This document shows positions 3,101 through 42,325 of a stretch of DNA of 64,000 nt, piece after piece. This DNA is from Bacteroidetes bacterium RIFCSPLOWO2_12_FULL_37_12 (lineage in GTDB: Bacteria > Bacteroidota > Bacteroidia > 2-12-FULL-37-12): positions 1 through 64,000 of the forward strand of contig MEPC01000033.1 in NCBI GenBank assembly GCA_001769655.1, given 5' to 3'. The notes beneath the pieces were generated by a model, which was not told where the DNA came from, did no database searches, and saw only the letters and a list, made by a program, of their open reading frames with translations. Position 1 is the first letter of the stretch, and the number at the start of each line of letters is the position of its first letter. The position numbers and the translations under genes were made by a program.

Positions 3101-3870
3101 CGCAGAGCATTAATTATGCAAAACGTATTCAGGATACCATCATTCCTGATTCGAACGCCTTAAAATATTTTTTTTCAGATTCTTTTGTGTTTTTAAAATC
3201 AAGAGATGTGGTGAGCGGCGACTTACCCTGGATTTATATCAATGAAGAAGACATTTACATTGCTTCTATTGATTGCACCGGTCATGGGGTTCCCGGCGCC
3301 ATCATGTCCATAGTAGCTCATTTTTTGTTGGATAAAATTATGTCCGAACATTCCGGGCTAGCAACTACTTATATCCTCAATGAATTGCACAAGGGTGTGA
3401 AAAAAACTTTACAACAGGAAAAAAATACCGACTCCCATGACGGGATGGACATGGCATTAATCAACGTGAAATTGAAAGACCGGGAAAAAAATAATTTTGA
3501 ACTGTGTTTTTCAGGAGCCAGAAGACCCCTTTTTCATTTGCATGGAAACGAGATTTTTGAAATAAAAGGAGACCGGTTTCCCATAGGAGGAGTTCAATAC
3601 TCAGGTAAGGGAAAAGAAGTGGCATTTACCGAAAATAAAATAAACATTTCCAGAGGGGATGCCATTTTCCTGTGCTCGGATGGAATCATAGACCAGTTTG
3701 GGCAAAAAGAAAATAAACGGTTCGGAGTGACACGATTATCAGAAACCATCGTGAATAATCATTCCCTCCCAATGGCAGAAATAGGCAATCGTATAAAAAA
3801 ACAATTTGAAGAATGGAAGGGAGAAAATAAACAGTTGGATGATGTGTTGCTGATTGGAATAAGATTTTGA
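181..3870 (+). CDS. Two-component-regulator propeller / Y_Y_Y / PAS / SpoIIE-type serine phosphatase
   Basis: Predicted membrane sensor whose output is a PP2C-like phosphatase instead of a kinase. A signal-peptide-like start (residues 1-25) is followed by Reg_prop propeller blades (about 30-690; recurrent [IL]W[FI]G[ST] after G-[NSI]), a Y_Y_Y domain (about 700-775), one membrane helix (about 783-805), a short coiled coil, a PAS domain (about 845-965) and a SpoIIE domain (about 975-1229). The acidic metal ligands are visible in SGD, DCTGHGVPGA, CSDGI and LDDV, so the phosphatase appears intact. In the family such enzymes dephosphorylate anti-anti-sigma-like partners; none is encoded nearby. 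The gene stands alone and converges on the peptidase gene. The ligand of the propeller is unknown. Confidence 0.9.
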   Translation: MKLVFRSTLFPLFAFLYTIFSDTFAEQYNFKTFSLEEGMSQSTIYTICQDKRGYIWFGTLGGGVSRFDGSEFTHFSVEDGLAGNQVYKIIEDQLGNLWFGTRNEGVSVYDGKKFRTLNTKNGLKAGTIRDMIQDEKGRILLGTEGGGVHLLNLAQGLDKIEIEIINTTSGLISNAVYSLCKDNYGNIWVGTQNGISILKNSTGKIINLDEKNGLSNLKIRSIETDNSGNIWIGTFGGSVFFADNLSINLNQTYRFLKPFSVLNDMQIMDIFINNEGSIWMATLGQGVFKYKNLKLINYTAAEGLSNNNVMTVFQDKSSSMWFGTFGGGASKLGDLAFSYISTKDGLTDNHVRSMIQTNNGDLWLGTFEGGVNLIRENQLINYSTKNGLSFNRVFAIMEDKNKNIWFGTDGEGVCKFDGKKFENYSVKNGLCHNQVWTIIQDKKGIIWFGTYGNGISGFDGKEFKSYNKSSGLIHNSVLTLLEDNKGTIWIGTYEGISKMVRNQYSASFISITTREGLSNNQVISLVQDPSGNIWAGTSGGGVCKLKESADGSIDIRCYSKKDGINSNNIKSLLLDNEGNIWIGSEKGIERIEISNDGKIKKLKFFGKEEGFNGIECYQNSACKDASGNLWFGTVKGAIKYTASEVKFNKVSPQTHITNIKLFFEDVNWINRTLGTDTIPLDESINYEKISEWNALPVNPVFPYSQNHFTFSFTGISHKTPEKVRYKFKLENFDKDWLPVTKENTATYANIQPGSYIFKVLSCNEENIWNTAPAEFYFTITPPFWRTWWFYTVMAGSVLSVIAGTIKIRERNLKHQKQLLENKVIERTEELKITNDKLISTNSELEKLSIVASETDNAVIIADAQGVIEWANQAFTRMTGFSIDEYKKLKGQSLEEVSSNPEIRNIISESIEQKKSVIYESLVRHKNGEEYVIQSTLTPVLNEHRAILKLVVIDTDITERKKTEIEIKDKNRKIAQSINYAKRIQDTIIPDSNALKYFFSDSFVFLKSRDVVSGDLPWIYINEEDIYIASIDCTGHGVPGAIMSIVAHFLLDKIMSEHSGLATTYILNELHKGVKKTLQQEKNTDSHDGMDMALINVKLKDREKNNFELCFSGARRPLFHLHGNEIFEIKGDRFPIGGVQYSGKGKEVAFTENKINISRGDAIFLCSDGIIDQFGQKENKRFGVTRLSETIVNNHSLPMAEIGNRIKKQFEEWKGENKQLDDVLLIGIRF

Positions 3871-6264: not shown

Positions 6265-7443
6265 TCATCTAAACGCCGAAACCCCTGTAATATGCTCGCC
6301 TGTGATCAATAAATGAATATCGTGAGTGCCTTCGTAAGTGATTACCGATTCAAGATTCATCATGTGCCTCATGATTGGATAATCGCCGGTGATTCCCATA
6401 GCTCCGTGAATTTGCCGGGCTTCTCTGGCAATATCCAACGCCATTGCTACATTATTTCTTTTAGCGAGTGACACTTGCTGGGTGGATGCTCTTCCCTCGT
6501 TTTTTAAGTTACCCAATCGCCAGCAAAGTAACTGTGCTTTTGTAATTTCAGTAATCATTTCCGATAGTTTTTTCTGTGTGAGTTGGAAGGAGGCAATGGG
6601 TTTGCTGAATTGAATTCTTTCCTGCGAATATCTCAAAGCAGAATCGTAACAATCCATAGCGGCGCCTACAGCTCCCCAGGCAATACCATAGCGCGCCTGG
6701 TCTAAACAACCTAAAGGACCACGAAGTCCTGATGCGTTCGGAAAAAGATTTTCCTTAGGCACTTTCACATTATCAAACACCAATTCACCGGTGGCACTGG
6801 CGCGTAATGACCATTTACCATGGGTTTCGGGAGTAGTAAATCCTTCCATTCCTCTTTCTACAATCAACCCTTTTATTTTTCCATTTTCATCCTTCGCCCA
6901 TACCACTGCCACTTCGGCAAAAGGAGCATTTGAAATCCACATTTTTGCACCATTCAACAGGTAATAACTTCCTTTGTCTTCAAAATGGGTTTTCATAGAA
7001 CCAGGGTCGGAACCATAATCGGGCTCCGTTAATCCAAAACAACCCATCCACTCTCCGGAAGCAAGTTTTGGCAGGTATTTCCGTTTTTGTTCTTCTGAAC
7101 CATATTTATAAATCGGAAACATTACGAGAGAACCCTGAACAGAAGCCGTAGAGCGGATACCGGAATCGCCACGTTCCAATTCCTGCATAATCAAACCATA
7201 CGAAGTATAATCAAGACCACCGCCGCCATATTCGGGAGGAATGGTAGGTCCAAATGCGCCAAGTTTTCCAAGTTCAGGAATAATATGTTTGGGGAAAACA
7301 GCATCCTGTGCGGCTTTTTCTATGATGGGAGAAATATGGGCTTTTACCCAGTCGCGGGCGGTGTTTCTAATAAGAATTTGTTCGGATGTGAAAAGTTCAT
7401 CTAATTGGTAATAGTCCGGTGCGGTGAAGCGGTCTTTGTGCAT
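6265..7443 (-). CDS. gcdH: Glutaryl-CoA dehydrogenase (acyl-CoA dehydrogenase family)
   Basis: FAD enzyme that oxidises and decarboxylates glutaryl-CoA to crotonyl-CoA in lysine/tryptophan breakdown. The length (392 residues) fits. The match to glutaryl-CoA dehydrogenases is specific: RSTASVQGSLVMFPI around the substrate pocket, GCFGLTEPDYGSDPG, and catalytic Glu371 in TYEGTHDIHLLITG. The start is the ATG at 7443; a TAnnTTTG box (TACATTTG, 7463-7470 complement) lies 19 bp upstream, giving a very short leader. Downstream genes are separated by a word-repeat spacer, so it is probably monocistronic. A short-chain acyl-CoA dehydrogenase is the alternative, less likely given the residues listed. 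Confidence 0.9.
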   Translation of the reverse strand: MHKDRFTAPDYYQLDELFTSEQILIRNTARDWVKAHISPIIEKAAQDAVFPKHIIPELGKLGAFGPTIPPEYGGGGLDYTSYGLIMQELERGDSGIRSTASVQGSLVMFPIYKYGSEEQKRKYLPKLASGEWMGCFGLTEPDYGSDPGSMKTHFEDKGSYYLLNGAKMWISNAPFAEVAVVWAKDENGKIKGLIVERGMEGFTTPETHGKWSLRASATGELVFDNVKVPKENLFPNASGLRGPLGCLDQARYGIAWGAVGAAMDCYDSALRYSQERIQFSKPIASFQLTQKKLSEMITEITKAQLLCWRLGNLKNEGRASTQQVSLAKRNNVAMALDIAREARQIHGAMGITGDYPIMRHMMNLESVITYEGTHDIHLLITGEHITGVSAFR

Positions 7444-12452: not shown

Positions 12453-13070
12453 ATGCTGTTTCAAGATTTTAGAAAAACCTTTTATGAATCGGGCTGTTTC
12501 AGCATCCATCAGCTATTAGCATGGAAACCTGAATTTGATAATAGCACTCTTACTCGATGGTGCCACAGAGGGTATATTATTAAACTCAGAAATGGATATT
12601 ATACTTTCCCGGAATATTTGAACGTAGCAGGTTTTAGTCATTTTATCGCTAATAGAATATATAAACCTTCTTATGTAAGTATTCATCATGCGCTAAGCAT
12701 TTATGGGCTAATTCCGGAAACAGTAATTAATATTACATCGGTAACCTCCCTAAAAACGGCAACCTTTACAAATAAATTCGGAACCTTTTCATATAGGACT
12801 GTAAAACCCGATTTACTTTTTGGGTACACTGAAAATCCATTTATGGGTGGCGCTATTTATATAGCCAGTTTAGAAAAAGCAATTTTAGATTTGTTATATC
12901 TTTATCCATTTTATAATACAAAGGAGGAATTAATCAATCTGAGATTTGATGAAAATGTGCTTGAGAAAGTGCTAAATACAAACTATTTATACCAATATCT
13001 TGAAATTTATAAAAGCCCGGTATTGGAAAAAAAAGTGAAATTATTATTGACCACTTACAGTTTATGCTAA
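12453..13070 (+). CDS. abiEi: AbiEi-like antitoxin / transcriptional regulator
   Basis: A 205-residue protein with an N-terminal winged-helix region (about 1-55, FSIHQLLAWKPEFDNSTLTRWCHRGYIIKL pattern, where a gate helix is followed by a short beta wing reading NGYYTFPE) and a C-terminal domain typical of AbiEi antitoxins (YVSIHHALSIYGLIPE, then the ITSVTS...TFSYRTVKP strands). The stop overlaps the start of the nucleotidyltransferase gene by 7 bp, the usual type IV toxin-antitoxin layout. AbiEi proteins repress their own promoter by binding inverted repeats; a fitting 38-bp palindrome lies directly before the start codon. The pair interrupts the stretch between the Crp/Fnr gene and the cytochrome oxidase operon. 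Confidence 0.82.
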   Translation: MLFQDFRKTFYESGCFSIHQLLAWKPEFDNSTLTRWCHRGYIIKLRNGYYTFPEYLNVAGFSHFIANRIYKPSYVSIHHALSIYGLIPETVINITSVTSLKTATFTNKFGTFSYRTVKPDLLFGYTENPFMGGAIYIASLEKAILDLLYLYPFYNTKEELINLRFDENVLEKVLNTNYLYQYLEIYKSPVLEKKVKLLLTTYSLC

Positions 13071-13858
13071 CAATTAAACAAATAACTTCCTATTTCCCTG
13101 TTCACTTGCATAGCAAGGACAAACTAAGATATGTATTACGGGAATATTTATTGTATAAAGCATTACAATTTCTCTCCGATACAACGTTCGTTAAACACGT
13201 ATGCTTTATTGGTGGCACTAACCTGCGCCTGATTCACGGGATTAACCGGTTCAGTGAAGACCTTGATTTCGATATTAAAAATTTTGACAGAAAAGAATTT
13301 ATTGGGATGACAGATTCATTAATAAATTATTTTAATAAATCTGGAATTCCAGCATTAGCGGAAGATAAAGTGAAAGACAAAAAATTAATGGCATTCAGAC
13401 GGAACATTGTTTTTCCAGGTTTTTTACAAGAGCATGAATTATCGGCAATAAAAGATGAAAAATTTCTGATGAAAATAGAATGTCAGGATCAACTGGTTTT
13501 ATATACACCAAAATTAATATTAATAAGCGGATGCGGAACTTTGTTTAAATTTCCTGCACCCCCTGACAATGTACTTTGTTCTATGAAAATATCCGCTTTA
13601 TTGAAAAGACGAAAAGGAAGGGATTTTTATGATGTGATGTTTTTACTTGGTAAAACAAATCCTGACTACAATTTTTTAAAACAAAGGGTGAATATATCAA
13701 ACGCATCTGAATTAAAATCAGCTTTCCTGAAAGTTATAAAAGAAACAGATATTGCATCAAAAGCTATAGATTTTAAAAACCTTACTCTTGAACCCGGAGA
13801 AAATAAAAAAATACTGTTTTTTAAAGAATTTGTAGAAAAATATTTTTCGTCTTTATAA
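13064..13858 (+). CDS. abiEii: AbiEii-like nucleotidyltransferase toxin
   Basis: A 264-residue nucleotidyltransferase of the AbiEii/AbiGii family. The active site reads FIGGTNLRLIHGINRFSEDLDFD, that is, the GG[ST]-x-R motif followed by DLDFD with the metal-binding aspartates, at about residues 47-69. The C-terminal half carries the conserved KISALLKRRKGRDFYDVMFLL segment. In type IV systems the toxin is silenced without direct antitoxin contact; related MenT toxins modify tRNA. The start overlaps the antitoxin gene by 7 bp. The key residues are present, so the toxin looks functional. A role in phage defence is known for the family, not shown here. Confidence 0.87.
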   Translation: MLTIKQITSYFPVHLHSKDKLRYVLREYLLYKALQFLSDTTFVKHVCFIGGTNLRLIHGINRFSEDLDFDIKNFDRKEFIGMTDSLINYFNKSGIPALAEDKVKDKKLMAFRRNIVFPGFLQEHELSAIKDEKFLMKIECQDQLVLYTPKLILISGCGTLFKFPAPPDNVLCSMKISALLKRRKGRDFYDVMFLLGKTNPDYNFLKQRVNISNASELKSAFLKVIKETDIASKAIDFKNLTLEPGENKKILFFKEFVEKYFSSL

Positions 13859-37014: not shown

Positions 37015-39036
37015 ATGAACTTCCAACTTTCATCATCATTTCGTCCTGCCGGAGACCAACCAAAAGCAATAAATCAATTGGTTGAAGGGTTAGAAAAAGG
37101 AGAGACCGCTCAGGTTCTCCTGGGGGTTACCGGCTCGGGTAAAACATTTACCATTGCAAATGTAATAGAAAAAATTCAAAAACCAACATTAATATTAACT
37201 CATAACAAAACCCTTGCGGCACAACTATTCGGGGAATTCCGTCAATTCTTTCCGGAAAATGCAGTGGAATACTTTATATCCTATTATGATTATTACCAAC
37301 CGGAGGCGTATTTGCCGGTATCTGACCTCTATATAGAAAAGGATCTTTCCATTAACGCTGAGATTGAAAAACTCCGCTTAAGAGCAACCTCGTCACTCCT
37401 TTCTGGTCGAAAAGATGTTATTGTGGTCGCTTCTGTATCTTGTATTTATGGAATTGGAAATCCCGAAGAGTTTGCTCAAAACATTATTCGCATTCAGGTA
37501 AAAGACAACATTGATAGAGATTCACTTTTGTTTGCATTGGTAGATATTTTATTTTCAAGGTCCGACAAGGACTTTCAACCCGGTACCTTCCGGGTCAGAG
37601 GAGATACGTTGGATGTATTTCCGGTTTACTCAAGTTTTGCCTATCGCATTATTTTTAATGGAAATGAAATAGAACATATTTCTTCCATTGAACCGGTTTC
37701 CTGTAAAATGATAAAAAGTGAAAGCGCAATATCACTTTTTCCAAAAAGTTTATTTATTACGGGAAAAGACGTTATGGAACTTGCCATGAGCGATATAAAA
37801 AAAGAACTTGAACTTCAGGTCAACTATTTATACCGGCAGGGAAAAGAACAGGAAGCAAAACGTTTATCTGAACGCACTTCCCTCGACATGGAAATGCTTA
37901 AAGAATTAGGATATTGCTCCGGTGTAGAAAATTATTCCCGTTTTTTTGACAGACGAAAACCAGGTGACAGACCGTTCTGTTTATTAGATTATTTTCCGGA
38001 AGATTTTTTAATGGTCGTAGATGAAAGTCATGCCACCATTCCACAAGTACGGGGAATGTATCATGGAGATCGGAGCCGTAAACAATCATTAGTCGAATAT
38101 GGATTCCGGTTGCCCTCTGCCTTAGACAATCGTCCGTTACGGTTTGATGAGTTTGAAATCATGGTTCCGCAAACTATATATATAAGTGCTACTCCCGCAA
38201 AATATGAATTGGAAAAATCAGAAGGGGTCATAGTAGAACAAATTGTAAGACCCACCGGATTATTGGAGCCGGTAGTGGATATCCGTCCAAGCATGAATCA
38301 GATCAATGACCTGATGAATGAAATTCAGAAACGCGCTGCCTCAAAAGAAAGGGTATTGGTAACTACACTTACCAAGCGAATGGCTGAGGAGTTATGTAAA
38401 TACTTCGATAAAAAAAATATCAGTAGCCGGTTTTTACATTCAGAAATCAAAGCACTCGACCGGATTGATATTTTAAGGGACTTACGGCTGGGTGAATTTG
38501 ATGTTTTGATAGGAGTAAATCTTCTTCGGGAAGGGTTGGATTTACCCGAAGTTTCTTTAGTTGCTATATTAGATGCAGATAAAGAAGGATTTTTACGAAA
38601 TGAAACGTCGTTAATCCAAACCGCCGGGCGCGCCGCCAGAAACCTGAACAGTTTAGTCATTTTATATGCCGATAAACTGACCGGTTCCATTCAGAAAGCA
38701 TCGGATGAAATAAACCGGAGACGAATGATTCAGATTCAATACAACGAAAAAAATAATATTATTCCTCAGTCCATTTTGAAAACCAAAGAATCCATATTAG
38801 AACAAACCACTATAGGGGAATCAAAATCAGCAAAACAAATCTATGCAGAGCCCTTTGAAATTAAAATGGTGGCAGATCCCCTCTTGCCGTATTTATCGAA
38901 AGATCAATTAAAGAAACTTGCGGGTACTACCAGAAAAAAAATGGAAAAAGCCGCCAAAGATTGGGATTTTCTTTCTGCGGCGAGATACAGGGATGAATTA
39001 AAAGAGATTGAGCGAAAAATCGGAGATAACTTTTAA
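37015..39036 (+). CDS. uvrB: Excinuclease ABC subunit B
   Basis: DNA damage-recognition helicase of nucleotide excision repair. The 673 residues include Walker A (GVTGSGKTFTIANV), the beta-hairpin region YYDYYQPEAYLP, DEXX (VVDESHATIPQVRGMYHGD), helicase motifs ISATPAKYE and GVNLLREGLDLPEVSLVAILDADKEGFLR, and the C-terminal UVR motif (DWDFLSAARYRDELKEIE) that binds UvrC. The gene stands alone between divergent lipoprotein genes and the acyl-CoA module. The 110 bp upstream contain GGTCATTGGTCAATGGTCA words and no clear promoter beyond TAATTTTA near 36993. Confidence 0.97.
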   Translation: MNFQLSSSFRPAGDQPKAINQLVEGLEKGETAQVLLGVTGSGKTFTIANVIEKIQKPTLILTHNKTLAAQLFGEFRQFFPENAVEYFISYYDYYQPEAYLPVSDLYIEKDLSINAEIEKLRLRATSSLLSGRKDVIVVASVSCIYGIGNPEEFAQNIIRIQVKDNIDRDSLLFALVDILFSRSDKDFQPGTFRVRGDTLDVFPVYSSFAYRIIFNGNEIEHISSIEPVSCKMIKSESAISLFPKSLFITGKDVMELAMSDIKKELELQVNYLYRQGKEQEAKRLSERTSLDMEMLKELGYCSGVENYSRFFDRRKPGDRPFCLLDYFPEDFLMVVDESHATIPQVRGMYHGDRSRKQSLVEYGFRLPSALDNRPLRFDEFEIMVPQTIYISATPAKYELEKSEGVIVEQIVRPTGLLEPVVDIRPSMNQINDLMNEIQKRAASKERVLVTTLTKRMAEELCKYFDKKNISSRFLHSEIKALDRIDILRDLRLGEFDVLIGVNLLREGLDLPEVSLVAILDADKEGFLRNETSLIQTAGRAARNLNSLVILYADKLTGSIQKASDEINRRRMIQIQYNEKNNIIPQSILKTKESILEQTTIGESKSAKQIYAEPFEIKMVADPLLPYLSKDQLKKLAGTTRKKMEKAAKDWDFLSAARYRDELKEIERKIGDNF

Positions 39037-39247: not shown

Positions 39248-40480
39248 ATGCGAAGAGTAGGACTAGTAGGCGCAGGCATTACCGATTGCCGTAGCCGTTG
39301 GGTGGAAGCCACTTATTGGAATCTTTTTCAACAAGCGACCAAAGCCACTTTAGAAGATGCCAAAGTAACTACTGATGAAGTGGATTCAGTGGTTTATGGT
39401 ATTTATAATGATATTTTCGAACACCAGGCAATTCCTGAAAGCTCCTTGACAGGAATTATTGGGATGGCACATAAACCCGGGGTCAGGGTAACCTCCGGAG
39501 GCGCTACAGGATTTTATGCCATGCGTGCCGCCATTATGGAAGTGGCTTCAGGTTATTCAGATCTGGTGCTGTGCATTGGAGGAGAAAAAGCAACTGACTG
39601 CTTTGACCCCGTTTCTAAAACACAAACTCCAATGGTTATTGATACCATTGCAAAATCATGGGACCCGTTTTTTGAATATCCTCTTGGTGCCACTGCCAGC
39701 GATTCGTATATGCAGGTTTGCATGGCATATAACGACAATTATCCTAACGATATCACAGACCCTGAAATCCGTGCTACTATTATTGAAATGCTCTGCCGGC
39801 AGGGAAACCGGAATCCTTACGGGCAACGCAGGGATGAAAAAGTTACAAAGCAACAAGTATTGGAATCGCGTTGGATTATAGCTCCTTTTCTCCGTTTATT
39901 AGAAGTGTGCATGTACACAGAGGGTGCGGGAGGTTTGTTGTTTGCCAGTGAAGAAAAAGCTAAAGAGATAAGTAAAAGAACCGGAAGTCCTATTATCTGG
40001 ATTAAAGGAGTTGGTGCCGCGAATGAATCTTACAATCCCGGACGTGGGGGGCTTTATAAACCATTACATAGAATTGAATCAGACCGGATTGCCGCTGAGC
40101 GTGCATACAAAATGGCAGGAGTGACACCCAAAGACATTCAATTAGTAGAACTTCATGATGCATTTATTGCGCAATTTATGGTAACCATGGGAGAATTAGG
40201 ATTTGTTCCCATAGGAAAAACCAGGGATTTAGTTGAAAAGCATATCATGGCTGATATCCGGGAATTAGGTGAAAATGAACATCCCAAAAAAGGTCAAATT
40301 TTAATAAATCCATCCGGTGGACTTATTTTCGGCGGACATTTCGTTGGTGGTTCTAATATGTTTTCTACATGGTCGCTAAGAAGAGAAATGATAAACCGGA
40401 GCATACGTTACGGATTAGTTCACGGAACAGGCGCTATTAATGCAGTGTTTGGCGGTGCGGTTGTGTTTGAACTGGAATAA
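39248..40480 (+). CDS. Thiolase-superfamily protein lacking the nucleophilic Cys (possible aldolase-type)
   Basis: A 410-residue protein with the SCP-x/non-decarboxylating thiolase fold. Where thiolases have the acylated cysteine (V-x-x-x-C-[AS]-[ST]-G), this reads VTSGGATG, with Gly85 in place of Cys. The ELHDAFIAQ and NPSGGLIFGGHFVGG motifs are kept, but the last thiolase cysteine is absent (HGTGAINAVFGGAVV). So normal thiolysis or Claisen condensation is unlikely. Cys-less members such as Ltp2 are retro-aldolases that act with a DUF35 partner; the next gene encodes exactly such a protein. It is annotated elsewhere as acetyl-CoA acetyltransferase by similarity, which I think is misleading. 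Confidence 0.8.
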   Translation: MRRVGLVGAGITDCRSRWVEATYWNLFQQATKATLEDAKVTTDEVDSVVYGIYNDIFEHQAIPESSLTGIIGMAHKPGVRVTSGGATGFYAMRAAIMEVASGYSDLVLCIGGEKATDCFDPVSKTQTPMVIDTIAKSWDPFFEYPLGATASDSYMQVCMAYNDNYPNDITDPEIRATIIEMLCRQGNRNPYGQRRDEKVTKQQVLESRWIIAPFLRLLEVCMYTEGAGGLLFASEEKAKEISKRTGSPIIWIKGVGAANESYNPGRGGLYKPLHRIESDRIAAERAYKMAGVTPKDIQLVELHDAFIAQFMVTMGELGFVPIGKTRDLVEKHIMADIRELGENEHPKKGQILINPSGGLIFGGHFVGGSNMFSTWSLRREMINRSIRYGLVHGTGAINAVFGGAVVFELE

Positions 40481-40489
40481 TTTTTATTT

Positions 40490-40522
40490 GTTGTAGTGAC
40501 ACAGTTCACCGTGTCACCACAT
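40490..40522. repeat. Diverged GACACGGTG-type palindrome
   Basis: GTAGTGACACAGTTC / ACCGTGTCACCAC, an imperfect member of the palindrome family at 32853-32874, in the 94-bp spacer between the thiolase-like gene and its DUF35 partner. Confidence 0.7.
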
Positions 40523-40574
40523 TATGATTTATAGATAATATTTAAAAATAGTTTTTTAAAATCAGAAAACAATC

Positions 40575-41561
40575 ATGAGTGAAATGGTATTACGCCCCGA
40601 ATTCAATCTTCCCAAAGGAACTTCTGAAGTTCTTGGGAAAGATGGAAAAACCTACCTGCAATTCAATTCCAGCATGGCTACCCTGTATCAGCAGACGTAT
40701 GGGGAACATTCCCGGTTTTTTCTTGCCTTAAGGGATGCAAAGCTTATCGGAAGCAAATGCACCCAATGCGGACAAGTGATGGTATCTGCGGCAACGTGGA
40801 ATTGTCCTTTCTGCAATTTTGCGGAAATGAAAGAAGTGGTACTCCCTCACAAAGGAATTTTAGCTCAAACTGCTCCTATCACCATTTTCCCTTCGCAATC
40901 CTTTATTGGACAGGCACCTTTCTGCAGGGGATATGTGGATATTGCCACGCAGGAAAAAGTGGCATCGTTTCTCCCTTCACGGTTGCGCACTACTACCGGC
41001 ATACCACGACCCGGTGTTTTTGTAAAAGGCATTGAACTGAAATTGGTTTTTAAAGACAAAAGAGAGGGTTCCATTCTCGATATTTTCTGGGTCCCCATGA
41101 AAGAAATTCCTAAAAAACTAAGGAATAAAGCGCCACTTTTTGAAAGTGAACTTAACTTTGAAAATCCAAAACTTCCAAAACTAAAAATTAATAAGAATCT
41201 GAAACCGGTTTACGTCAAATTACTTCAATCGCTAAACGAAATGTCGCTCAAAGTATTGAAAAGTCCACGGGCACAAAAAGATCTGGCTGGTAAAAAATAC
41301 CGGATTGGTGTAAAAACCGGAGGTGGAGATTTTACATTTATTATTGAAAAAAACAAAATGAAAGTAGAGCCAAAAGTTGCAAAAAAAACTGATTTTGTGA
41401 TTGTGGCAAATAACCCAAAAACTTTTAACGATTGGATAAACGACGGTTCTTTAACGGATGCGGTTATTGAAGGAAAGTTATGGCTTCCTTCGCGCGAAGC
41501 ATTTATTTTCTTACCCATGTTGGATCGACTTCCAAGATCTATAAGGAGGGATGGAGTGTAA
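40575..41561 (+). CDS. DUF35 zinc-ribbon/OB-fold protein fused to an SCP2 domain
   Basis: A 328-residue fusion. Residues about 45-180 are a DUF35 unit: rubredoxin-like zinc ribbon with Cys62, 65, 77 and 80, followed by an acyl-CoA-binding OB fold (KGILAQTAPITIFPSQSF, PRPGVFVKGIELKLVF). Residues about 215-325 are an SCP2 sterol-carrier-like domain (LAGKKYRIGVKTGGGDFTFIIEKNKM, then WINDGSLTDAVIEGKLWL). DUF35 proteins escort or channel acyl-CoAs for thiolase-fold partners; SCP2 domains bind lipids or CoA esters. The fusion next to a Cys-less thiolase suggests a substrate-channelling complex. The enoyl-CoA hydratase-like gene follows by 5 bp. Confidence 0.85.
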   Translation: MSEMVLRPEFNLPKGTSEVLGKDGKTYLQFNSSMATLYQQTYGEHSRFFLALRDAKLIGSKCTQCGQVMVSAATWNCPFCNFAEMKEVVLPHKGILAQTAPITIFPSQSFIGQAPFCRGYVDIATQEKVASFLPSRLRTTTGIPRPGVFVKGIELKLVFKDKREGSILDIFWVPMKEIPKKLRNKAPLFESELNFENPKLPKLKINKNLKPVYVKLLQSLNEMSLKVLKSPRAQKDLAGKKYRIGVKTGGGDFTFIIEKNKMKVEPKVAKKTDFVIVANNPKTFNDWINDGSLTDAVIEGKLWLPSREAFIFLPMLDRLPRSIRRDGV

Positions 41562-41566
41562 TAGTC

Positions 41567-42325
41567 ATGTTGTCTAACGTAAAAACTCATATTCACCAAG
41601 AGGTAGCAACCATTACTTTTTTTCATCCTAAAAGCAATTCACTTCCAGGTGAATTGTTGAGAGAACTAACCTATCAAATAACTTCTGCCGGAAATAATCC
41701 AATTGTAAAAGTAATCATTATAAAAAGCGAAGGAGACAAAACGTTTTGTGGCGGCGCTTCTTTTGATGATTTAATTGCAATCAAAAATTTTGAAGATGGA
41801 AAAAAATTTTTCCTCACGTTGGCAGAAGTTATTAATGCCATGCGGAATGTCCCCAAATTTATCATTGCGCGAATACAAGGAAAGGCAGTAGGAGGAGGTG
41901 TAGGACTTGCGGCATCAGCGGATTATGCGTTTGCCGTTAAAGATGCATCCATCCGTTTGAGTGAACTTGCACTTGGAATCGGTCCTTTTGTAGTAGGTCC
42001 CGCTGTAGAAAGAAAAATAGGAAATTCGGCTTTTACTTCGTTAACTATAAACCCCACTGTCTGGAAGACAGCAGAATGGGCGAGAGAAAAAGGTCTTTAC
42101 GCTGAAGTAGTTGATAGTGTCGCTGAGATGGATGCCGCCATCCAATCGCTTGCCGAAAAACTTGCACACAGCAATCCTGAAGCCATGGCACAATTAAAAA
42201 AGGTAATGTGGAGTGGCACGGAGCATTGGGATAAATTACTGGTAGAAAGGGCAGAAATGAGCGGAAGGTTTTTGCTATCGGAGTTTACGCAAAAGGCGTT
42301 GAAGAGCTTAGTAACTAATAAGTAA
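41567..42325 (+). CDS. Enoyl-CoA hydratase/isomerase family protein
   Basis: A 252-residue crotonase-fold protein. The ATG at 41567 follows the DUF35-SCP2 stop by 5 bp; a longer frame from 41480 would overlap that gene. The oxyanion site FCGGASFDDL and GGGVG are present. Of the two catalytic glutamates of hydratases, the second is kept (LSELALGIGPF), whereas the position of the first (usually GG[GC]-x-E-L) reads GGGVGLA, so hydration in the standard manner is doubtful. Methylglutaconyl-CoA hydratase-like proteins are the nearest type I recognise. Tight spacing makes it the third gene of the acyl-CoA module. Confidence 0.85.
   Translation: MLSNVKTHIHQEVATITFFHPKSNSLPGELLRELTYQITSAGNNPIVKVIIIKSEGDKTFCGGASFDDLIAIKNFEDGKKFFLTLAEVINAMRNVPKFIIARIQGKAVGGGVGLAASADYAFAVKDASIRLSELALGIGPFVVGPAVERKIGNSAFTSLTINPTVWKTAEWAREKGLYAEVVDSVAEMDAAIQSLAEKLAHSNPEAMAQLKKVMWSGTEHWDKLLVERAEMSGRFLLSEFTQKALKSLVTNK

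Follow-up and report, generated by a model that had tools for sequence, protein, structure and literature searches.

The stretch of DNA analysed here, referred to as the window, covers positions 1 to 64,000 (forward strand) of contig MEPC01000033.1 in the GenBank assembly GCA_001769655.1 of Bacteroidetes bacterium RIFCSPLOWO2_12_FULL_37_12. Between positions 39248 and 42325 it carries three consecutive genes, all on the + strand, for a thiolase-fold protein devoid of the nucleophilic cysteine (P0001), a fusion of a DUF35 and an SCP2 domain (P0002) and a crotonase-family protein (P0003). The first two represent a conserved and uncharacterised variation on the DUF35-thiolase complexes. An original prediction, made from the sequence alone, had described the three genes, and their positions, strand and domain content were confirmed; it had also proposed that they work together in cleaving or forming β-hydroxyacyl-CoAs, as the Ltp2-type retro-aldolases of steroid side-chain breakdown do, with the SCP2 domain delivering a lipid-like substrate. 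The intergenic gaps are 94 bp (P0001–P0002) and 5 bp (P0002–P0003), and P0003 is probably co-transcribed with the pair that precedes it. The genes are the following:

39248 to 40480, + strand: P0001, Cys-less thiolase-fold subunit of 410 aa (Pfam Thiolase_N and Thiolase_C_1, AlphaFold2 model, fold matches)
40575 to 41561, + strand: P0002, DUF35-SCP2 fusion subunit of 328 aa (alignment of 49 homologs, structure and fold search)
41567 to 42325, + strand: P0003, crotonase-family protein of 252 aa (ECH_1, 116.9 bits)

In P0001 both Thiolase_N and Thiolase_C_1 exceeded the Pfam cut-offs, the AlphaFold2 model reached a predicted template-modelling score (pTM) of 0.86, and its best fold matches were the archaeal acetoacetyl-CoA thiolase first and then SCP2-thiolases. 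The residues relevant to the active site are encoded as follows, all on the + strand:

39500 to 39502: Gly85, at the site of the thiolase nucleophilic Cys, in a GGATG motif invariant in the covering homologs
39599 to 39601: Cys118, in an EKATDC motif, invariant and also found in most of the sister family described below
40154 to 40156: His303 of HDAF, at the position of TcLtp2 Tyr294 (alignment; PMC12329534)
40337 to 40339: His364 of GGH, at the position of TcLtp2 Tyr344 and CtSal Gln352 (alignment; PMC12329534)
40421 to 40423: His392 of HGTG, which MAFFT places on the His of the thiolase HN/HT motif and which is Gln in the sister family

The nucleophile column reads VEAACASG in the archaeal thiolase 6esq and VTSGGATG in P0001, which places Gly85 at the Cys, and the HDCF motif of SCP2-thiolases reads HDAF, with Ala305 in place of the second Cys. 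The absence of both cysteines, as originally claimed, was therefore borne out, and it is a property of the family, since Gly85, His303, Ala305, His364 and His392 were identical in all the members spanning these positions. Measured against active SCP2-type and DUF35-associated thiolases, the catalytic Cys is replaced by Gly in every member spanning its position, and the histidines of the HDxF and GH motifs are kept invariantly as His303 and His364.

The partner subunit P0002 can be divided into two parts, with approximate limits:

40710 to 41108, + strand: DUF35 part, with a zinc ribbon (Cys62, 65, 77, 80) and an OB fold (matches 6ok1_B, 9myr_B, 7pxp_A)
41187 to 41552, + strand: SCP2 domain (sub-threshold Pfam SCP2; fold matches 2cx7 and UbiJ)

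When P0002 alone was compared with Pfam, SCP2 scored 17.4 bits, under the cut-off of 21.3, and DUF35 gave no match; phmmer did match DUF35 structures (3irb, E 3e-6; 6esq_E, E 1.3e-3). Across the 49 homologs, zf-ChsH2 was found in 41 and SCP2 in 14 (E ≤ 0.01), and the four zinc cysteines were invariant in the alignment, which indicates a C4 zinc ribbon. The ranked fold matches of the AlphaFold2 model (mean per-residue confidence, pLDDT, 87; pTM 0.82) begin with the DUF35 partners of Ltp2 and Sal, continue with BbsA and archaeal DUF35 and then reach SCP2 proteins, among them 2cx7 and UbiJ; thus P0002 has both the C4 ribbon and OB fold of ChsH2-type DUF35 proteins and an SCP2 fold. Because the homolog profiles and the model fold matches agree, the fusion is genuine, though weak in the single sequence, and this part of the prediction stands. 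A PF01796 (Pfam DUF35 family) search of the window's own genome gave no match, an outcome presumably due to divergence of the OB part. The prediction had seen in the fusion a difference from known complexes; as an observation it is not new: DUF35-SCP2 fusions were already listed in 2010, with no function assigned (PMC2954200), though we found no functional study of them.

The crotonase P0003 carries Gly113 at the site of the first catalytic Glu and retains the second, Glu133, so that one of the two catalytic residues of crotonases and enoyl-CoA hydratases is missing, as the prediction had noted for this gene 5 bp downstream. This is not unusual, since 3i47, the closest solved crotonase, shows the identical Gly and likewise retains the second Glu. 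On the other hand, the three-gene unit had to be rejected. A neighbourhood survey of 57 loci showed that the pair is kept and that the crotonase is not beside it in most relatives; in the genome of the closest one (G395, thiolase 91% identical), a 72% identical P0003 ortholog lies on a different contig, unlinked from the pair. The real unit is thus P0001 plus P0002, and the crotonase is not a conserved part of it.

The 57 homologous loci were obtained by scanning P0001 against 84,980 genomes, and all of them are Cys-less where readable. An adjoining DUF35-SCP2 gene was present in 51 (two of them cut by the contig end); in five of the remaining six the contig breaks off close to the gene, and in the sixth (L059) the thiolase is truncated, so the partner lies beside the thiolase in every intact locus with sufficient sequence. 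L059 (9908–12720), in which the truncated thiolase directly precedes an acetoacetate-CoA ligase gene, with a β-keto acid cleavage enzyme (BKACE) gene upstream, is probably a decayed locus. In two genomes of the Dehalococcoidia class (L119, L120) the thiolase is broken by a stop codon and the adjoining DUF35-SCP2 frame is intact.

The loci span Myxococcota, Planctomycetota, Zixibacteria, Patescibacteria, Desulfobacterota, Chloroflexi and others, and fall into three groups by identity to P0001. Group 1 (72–91%) includes a Bacteroidetes metagenome-assembled genome (MAG), MAGs of Myxococcales/Polyangiaceae and other Deltaproteobacteria, Planctomycetota, Zixibacteria, Schekmanbacteria and Kerfeldbacteria; group 2 (53–58%) is mainly from Deltaproteobacteria and Desulfobacterales, with one Acidobacteria; group 3 (about 45–50%, 35 loci) comes from Dehalococcoidia and other Chloroflexi, Desulfo-lineages, Bacillota and others. 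The pair is single-copy in 15 of the 17 genomes examined. Its distribution is sparse and patchy. With class and phylum names inferred from the focal loci, carriers numbered about 8 among the 85 genomes of one Desulfobacterota-type class (with four of the sister family in addition), about a dozen among the 294 of the Dehalococcoidia class, 3 among the 195 of the Myxococcota-type phylum and 2 among the 380 of the Patescibacteria phylum (G397, G1269). In the window's phylum, no relative of P0002 was found in the 394 other genomes searched, leaving its own genome as the one in 395; since the pair is so rare there, it was probably acquired by transfer. Similarly, the patchy high identity across phyla suggests horizontal transfer of the pair. 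Conservation over so many phyla is far beyond chance.

To describe the genomic context, acyl-CoA gene families were counted as loci having them within 3 kb of the pair or, as a control, 5–10 kb away. In group 3 the near and control counts were 7 and 0 for CoA-transferase, 7 and 0 for AMP ligase, 10 and 2 for acyl-CoA dehydrogenase (ACAD), 3 and 0 for aldehyde ferredoxin oxidoreductase (AOR), 2 and 0 for MaoC, 4 and 2 for ADP-forming ligase and 4 and 3 for crotonase, a contrast that is indicative rather than a formal test, because the representative queries were drawn from the same loci, favouring near-pair matches. Nearly all these neighbours are on the same strand as the pair. Pfam/NCBIfam confirmed MaoC (L038), AOR (L033) and CoA-transferase (L028, L050), and NCBIfam cut-offs were exceeded by acetoacetate-CoA ligase (L034, L059) and 3-oxoacid CoA-transferase (L008, L025). 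Moreover, at L051 genes for a carboxyltransferase, biotin carboxylase, biotin carrier, crotonase, AtuA, a ligase and an ACAD lie upstream on the same strand. A retro-aldol step would call for a hydratase ahead of the pair and, behind it, an enzyme that processes an aldehyde or a 3-oxoacid.

A sister family (L108–L111, L122), about 39% identical, is likewise Cys-less and retains HDAF and GH; its DUF35 partner is shorter (about 183–196 aa), without SCP2, and in several loci it stands beside BKACE, MaoC, ACAD and AMP ligase genes. The relationship of both families to the steroid aldolases was evaluated by alignment and phylogeny. The catalytic residues of TcLtp2 are Tyr294 (in YDHF) and Tyr344, and those of CtSal are Tyr302 and Cys304 in YDCY, with Gln352 in place of Tyr344 (PMC12329534). 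In the alignment with 6ok1_A, Tyr294 falls in the His303 column and Tyr344, ten residues past the N of NTHGG, in the His364 column. The Ltp2 tyrosines whose retention was to be checked are consequently not kept, because thiolase-type histidines occupy both columns. The features shared with Ltp2 and Sal are the Gly for the nucleophilic Cys and the adjoining DUF35 partner gene. A maximum-likelihood tree separates Ltp2/Sal, with 95% support, from the family and its sister together with further Cys-less relatives, and a constrained tree uniting the family and its sister with Ltp2/Sal was rejected by the approximately unbiased (AU) test (p = 0.0147), the references being few, taken from printed alignments and inclusive of a BbsB fragment. 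On these residues and this tree, membership in Ltp2/Sal was discarded. From the Ltp2-like retro-aldolase originally envisaged there remain the pairing of a Cys-less thiolase with DUF35 and a DUF35 fold closest to the Ltp2/Sal partners; the tyrosines and the grouping in the tree were lost, and in its working the pair is at most analogous to these aldolases.

Taken together, the loss of the Cys, the invariant histidines, the coupling of the genes, the DUF35 and SCP2 folds and the acyl-CoA context of group 3 lead us to suggest that the pair is probably a non-covalent acyl-CoA aldolase. Stated in full, namely that P0001 and P0002 constitute a two-subunit acyl-CoA carbon–carbon lyase/aldolase of the DUF35-thiolase type, acting without an acyl-enzyme intermediate, the proposal seems to us evenly poised between right and wrong. 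The thiolase-fold subunit would dimerise with DUF35 flanking it, by analogy with Ltp2-ChsH2 and Sal-Shy; the Gly85 region may bind the β-hydroxyl of the substrate, His303 and His364 could take over from the two tyrosines that serve Ltp2 as base and acid, so as to deprotonate the 3-hydroxyacyl-CoA and reprotonate the CoA enolate, and the SCP2 domain would hold the hydrophobic portion. In the anaerobe branch of the family the most probable reaction would be the retro-aldol cleavage of a 3-hydroxyacyl-CoA into acetyl-CoA, or another acyl-CoA, and an aldehyde, ketone or β-keto acid. The same chemistry is likely in the window's branch (groups 1 and 2), and in the window's organism the crotonase P0003 could supply the 3-hydroxyacyl-CoA. 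The earlier idea that acyl-CoAs are cleaved or formed here is, then, upheld in part, by the anaerobe relatives with adjoining hydratase, aldehyde-oxidising and CoA-ligase genes, and weakened by the missing Ltp2 tyrosines.

Several observations weigh against the aldolase. All the homologs have HDAF rather than the catalytic Tyr of the YDxF/Y motif, and His364 and Ala305 stand where Ltp2 Tyr344 or Sal Cys304 would provide the second catalytic residue. Acyl-CoA neighbours would suit other acyl-CoA enzymes equally, and the three AOR loci may represent one lineage. Groups 1 and 2 are mostly orphan bicistrons amid unrelated genes, with few catabolic neighbours; exceptions are L008, beside 3-oxoacid CoA-transferase, thiolase, HBDH and ACAD genes, and L006, with a crotonase 109 bp upstream. 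The Patescibacteria genome G397 carries the pair and gave no ACAD (PF00441) or crotonase (PF00378) match, an absence that is not proof because G397 is a MAG and possibly incomplete. In addition, the active-site loop of P0001 is poorly modelled by AlphaFold2, and our literature search of open-licence papers found no characterised enzyme of the family or its sister.

The orphan context of the pair in the window's branch, its single copy in 15 of 17 genomes, and its occurrence in G397 and in a second Patescibacteria genome (G1269), could also be explained if the enzyme of the window's branch worked in the synthetic direction, using an aldol or Claisen-type condensation to build a 3-hydroxyacyl-CoA destined for a lipid or some other product. 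However, no biosynthetic genes were recognised beside the pair, the missing matches in G397 are subject to the limit just given and L008, with its catabolic neighbours, belongs to the same branch; we consider this direction unlikely. A narrower version of the aldolase, which we rate as rather unlikely, would see in these proteins a separate His/His thiolase-fold family, arisen apart from the steroid aldolases and cleaving tertiary 3-hydroxyacyl-CoAs, such as 3-hydroxy-3-alkylglutaryl-CoAs, into acetyl-CoA and a β-keto acid in anaerobes, that is, doing the job of 3-hydroxy-3-methylglutaryl-CoA (HMG-CoA) lyase with an unrelated fold and SCP2 built in. The neighbours in L008, L025, L034 and L051 fit a replacement of HMG-CoA lyase, and AOR elsewhere points to aldehydes instead.

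The two histidines also allow for other chemistries. Decarboxylating condensing enzymes generally have two His and no Cys, so a KS-Q-like decarboxylase, in which the histidines would stabilise the enolate from a malonyl-CoA-type substrate, would match the active site. In its favour, TbSLP slowly decarboxylates malonyl-CoA (PMC12329534), and acyl-CoA carboxylase parts do lie near the pair in L051. This is, however, the one locus where carboxylase genes were recognised beside the SCP2-fused family, and CtSal has no malonyl-CoA decarboxylase activity (PMC12329534); we regard a decarboxylase as quite unlikely. It is improbable, in our view, that P0001 is a true thiolase whose nucleophile has moved to Cys118. 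The residue is conserved without exception in the family, occurs in most members of the sister family and sits in a loop (residues 116–152) modelled with confidence below 50, which leaves some room for the displaced Cys named at the outset as a ground for refutation; yet its column is not nucleophilic in 6esq, SCP2-thiolase or other relatives, and the usual nucleophile column is invariantly Gly. Finally, the loss of both cysteines and the SCP2 domain on the partner would agree with a non-catalytic, lipid- or acyl-CoA-binding scaffold of thiolase descent, but a scaffold does not need two active-site histidines and dense surrounding residues held invariant over many phyla, and this explanation is very improbable.

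Whatever the reaction, a widely scattered and strongly conserved pair is added to a family with few known, mostly steroid, members, and it can be searched for by the signature GGATG, HDAF and GGH with a DUF35-SCP2 neighbour. If the aldolase proposal is true, thiolase-fold aldolases would not be confined to steroids, two different catalytic dyads would have evolved on one scaffold, and the missing C–C cleaving step would be supplied in many acyl-CoA operons from uncultured anaerobes.

Other genes of the window and its genome were recorded. The gene uvrB (window 37015–39036) adjoins the pair, and does so also, in the opposite relative orientation, in a Kerfeldbacteria contig (L009/L142, G397:C52), probably by coincidence. 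An ACAD gene (window 6265–7443), about 32 kb away, has no linkage to the pair, and an AbiEii-type nucleotidyltransferase of the type IV toxin-antitoxin family (PF08843, 56 bits) is found at 13064–13858; neither Rfam nor the tRNA scan yielded a match in the window. Elsewhere in the genome, at 4175–7436 of L149 (G000:C21:1-17520), the genes for 6-oxocyclohex-1-ene-1-carbonyl-CoA hydratase and 6-hydroxycyclohex-1-ene-1-carbonyl-CoA dehydrogenase exceeded NCBIfam cut-offs, accompanied by a cyclohexadienecarbonyl-CoA hydratase-like crotonase below cut-off; judged by these matches, they are genes of the anaerobic benzoyl-CoA pathway in a Bacteroidota genome. At 3476–19001 of L146 (G000:C12:14000-33000), caprolactamase/hydantoinase-like subunits, an ACAD, a thiolase, a methylmalonyl-CoA mutase-like and a B12-binding-like protein, a type III CoA-transferase and a possible indolepyruvate oxidoreductase form a cluster which, by eye, we take to be like those of anaerobic indoleacetate degradation.

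Among the known systems, eukaryotic SCPx (SCP2-thiolase) also brings an SCP2 domain together with a thiolase fold, but it keeps the catalytic cysteines and bears SCP2 on the thiolase chain, whereas here SCP2 is on the DUF35 chain. The archaeal acetoacetyl-CoA thiolase/DUF35/HMG-CoA synthase complex (PDB 6ESQ, 6ET9) contains the solved thiolase that comes closest both in sequence (24% identity) and in fold, and has a DUF35 partner in common; it differs by a catalytic Cys and by an HMG-CoA synthase subunit, which were not found in this pair. The benzoylsuccinyl-CoA thiolase BbsAB (PDB 7PXP) is likewise a two-gene thiolase-DUF35 complex of anaerobic acyl-CoA catabolism but, unlike this pair, has no SCP2, and it acts on a 3-keto substrate; membership in it was rejected, the scores being 55.1 against an NCBIfam cut-off of 750 bits for BbsB and 21.1 against 250 for BbsA, and the other NCBIfam thiolase models were also far under cut-off for P0001. 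Ltp2-ChsH2 (PDB 6OK1) shares the Cys-less thiolase fold, the Gly at the nucleophile and the DUF35 partner, which is the best fold match of P0002; it differs in having Tyr294/Tyr344 and YDHF instead of His303/His364 and HDAF, and in ChsH2 being fused to a MaoC-type domain rather than to SCP2. In the bile-acid aldolase Sal-Shy (PDB 9MYR, PMC12329534), which gave the second-best DUF35 fold match, Gly again replaces the Cys and a DUF35 partner is present, but Tyr302/Cys304 of Sal correspond to His303/Ala305 of P0001, and Shy has a C3H1 zinc site and a MaoC fusion where P0002 has C4 and SCP2.

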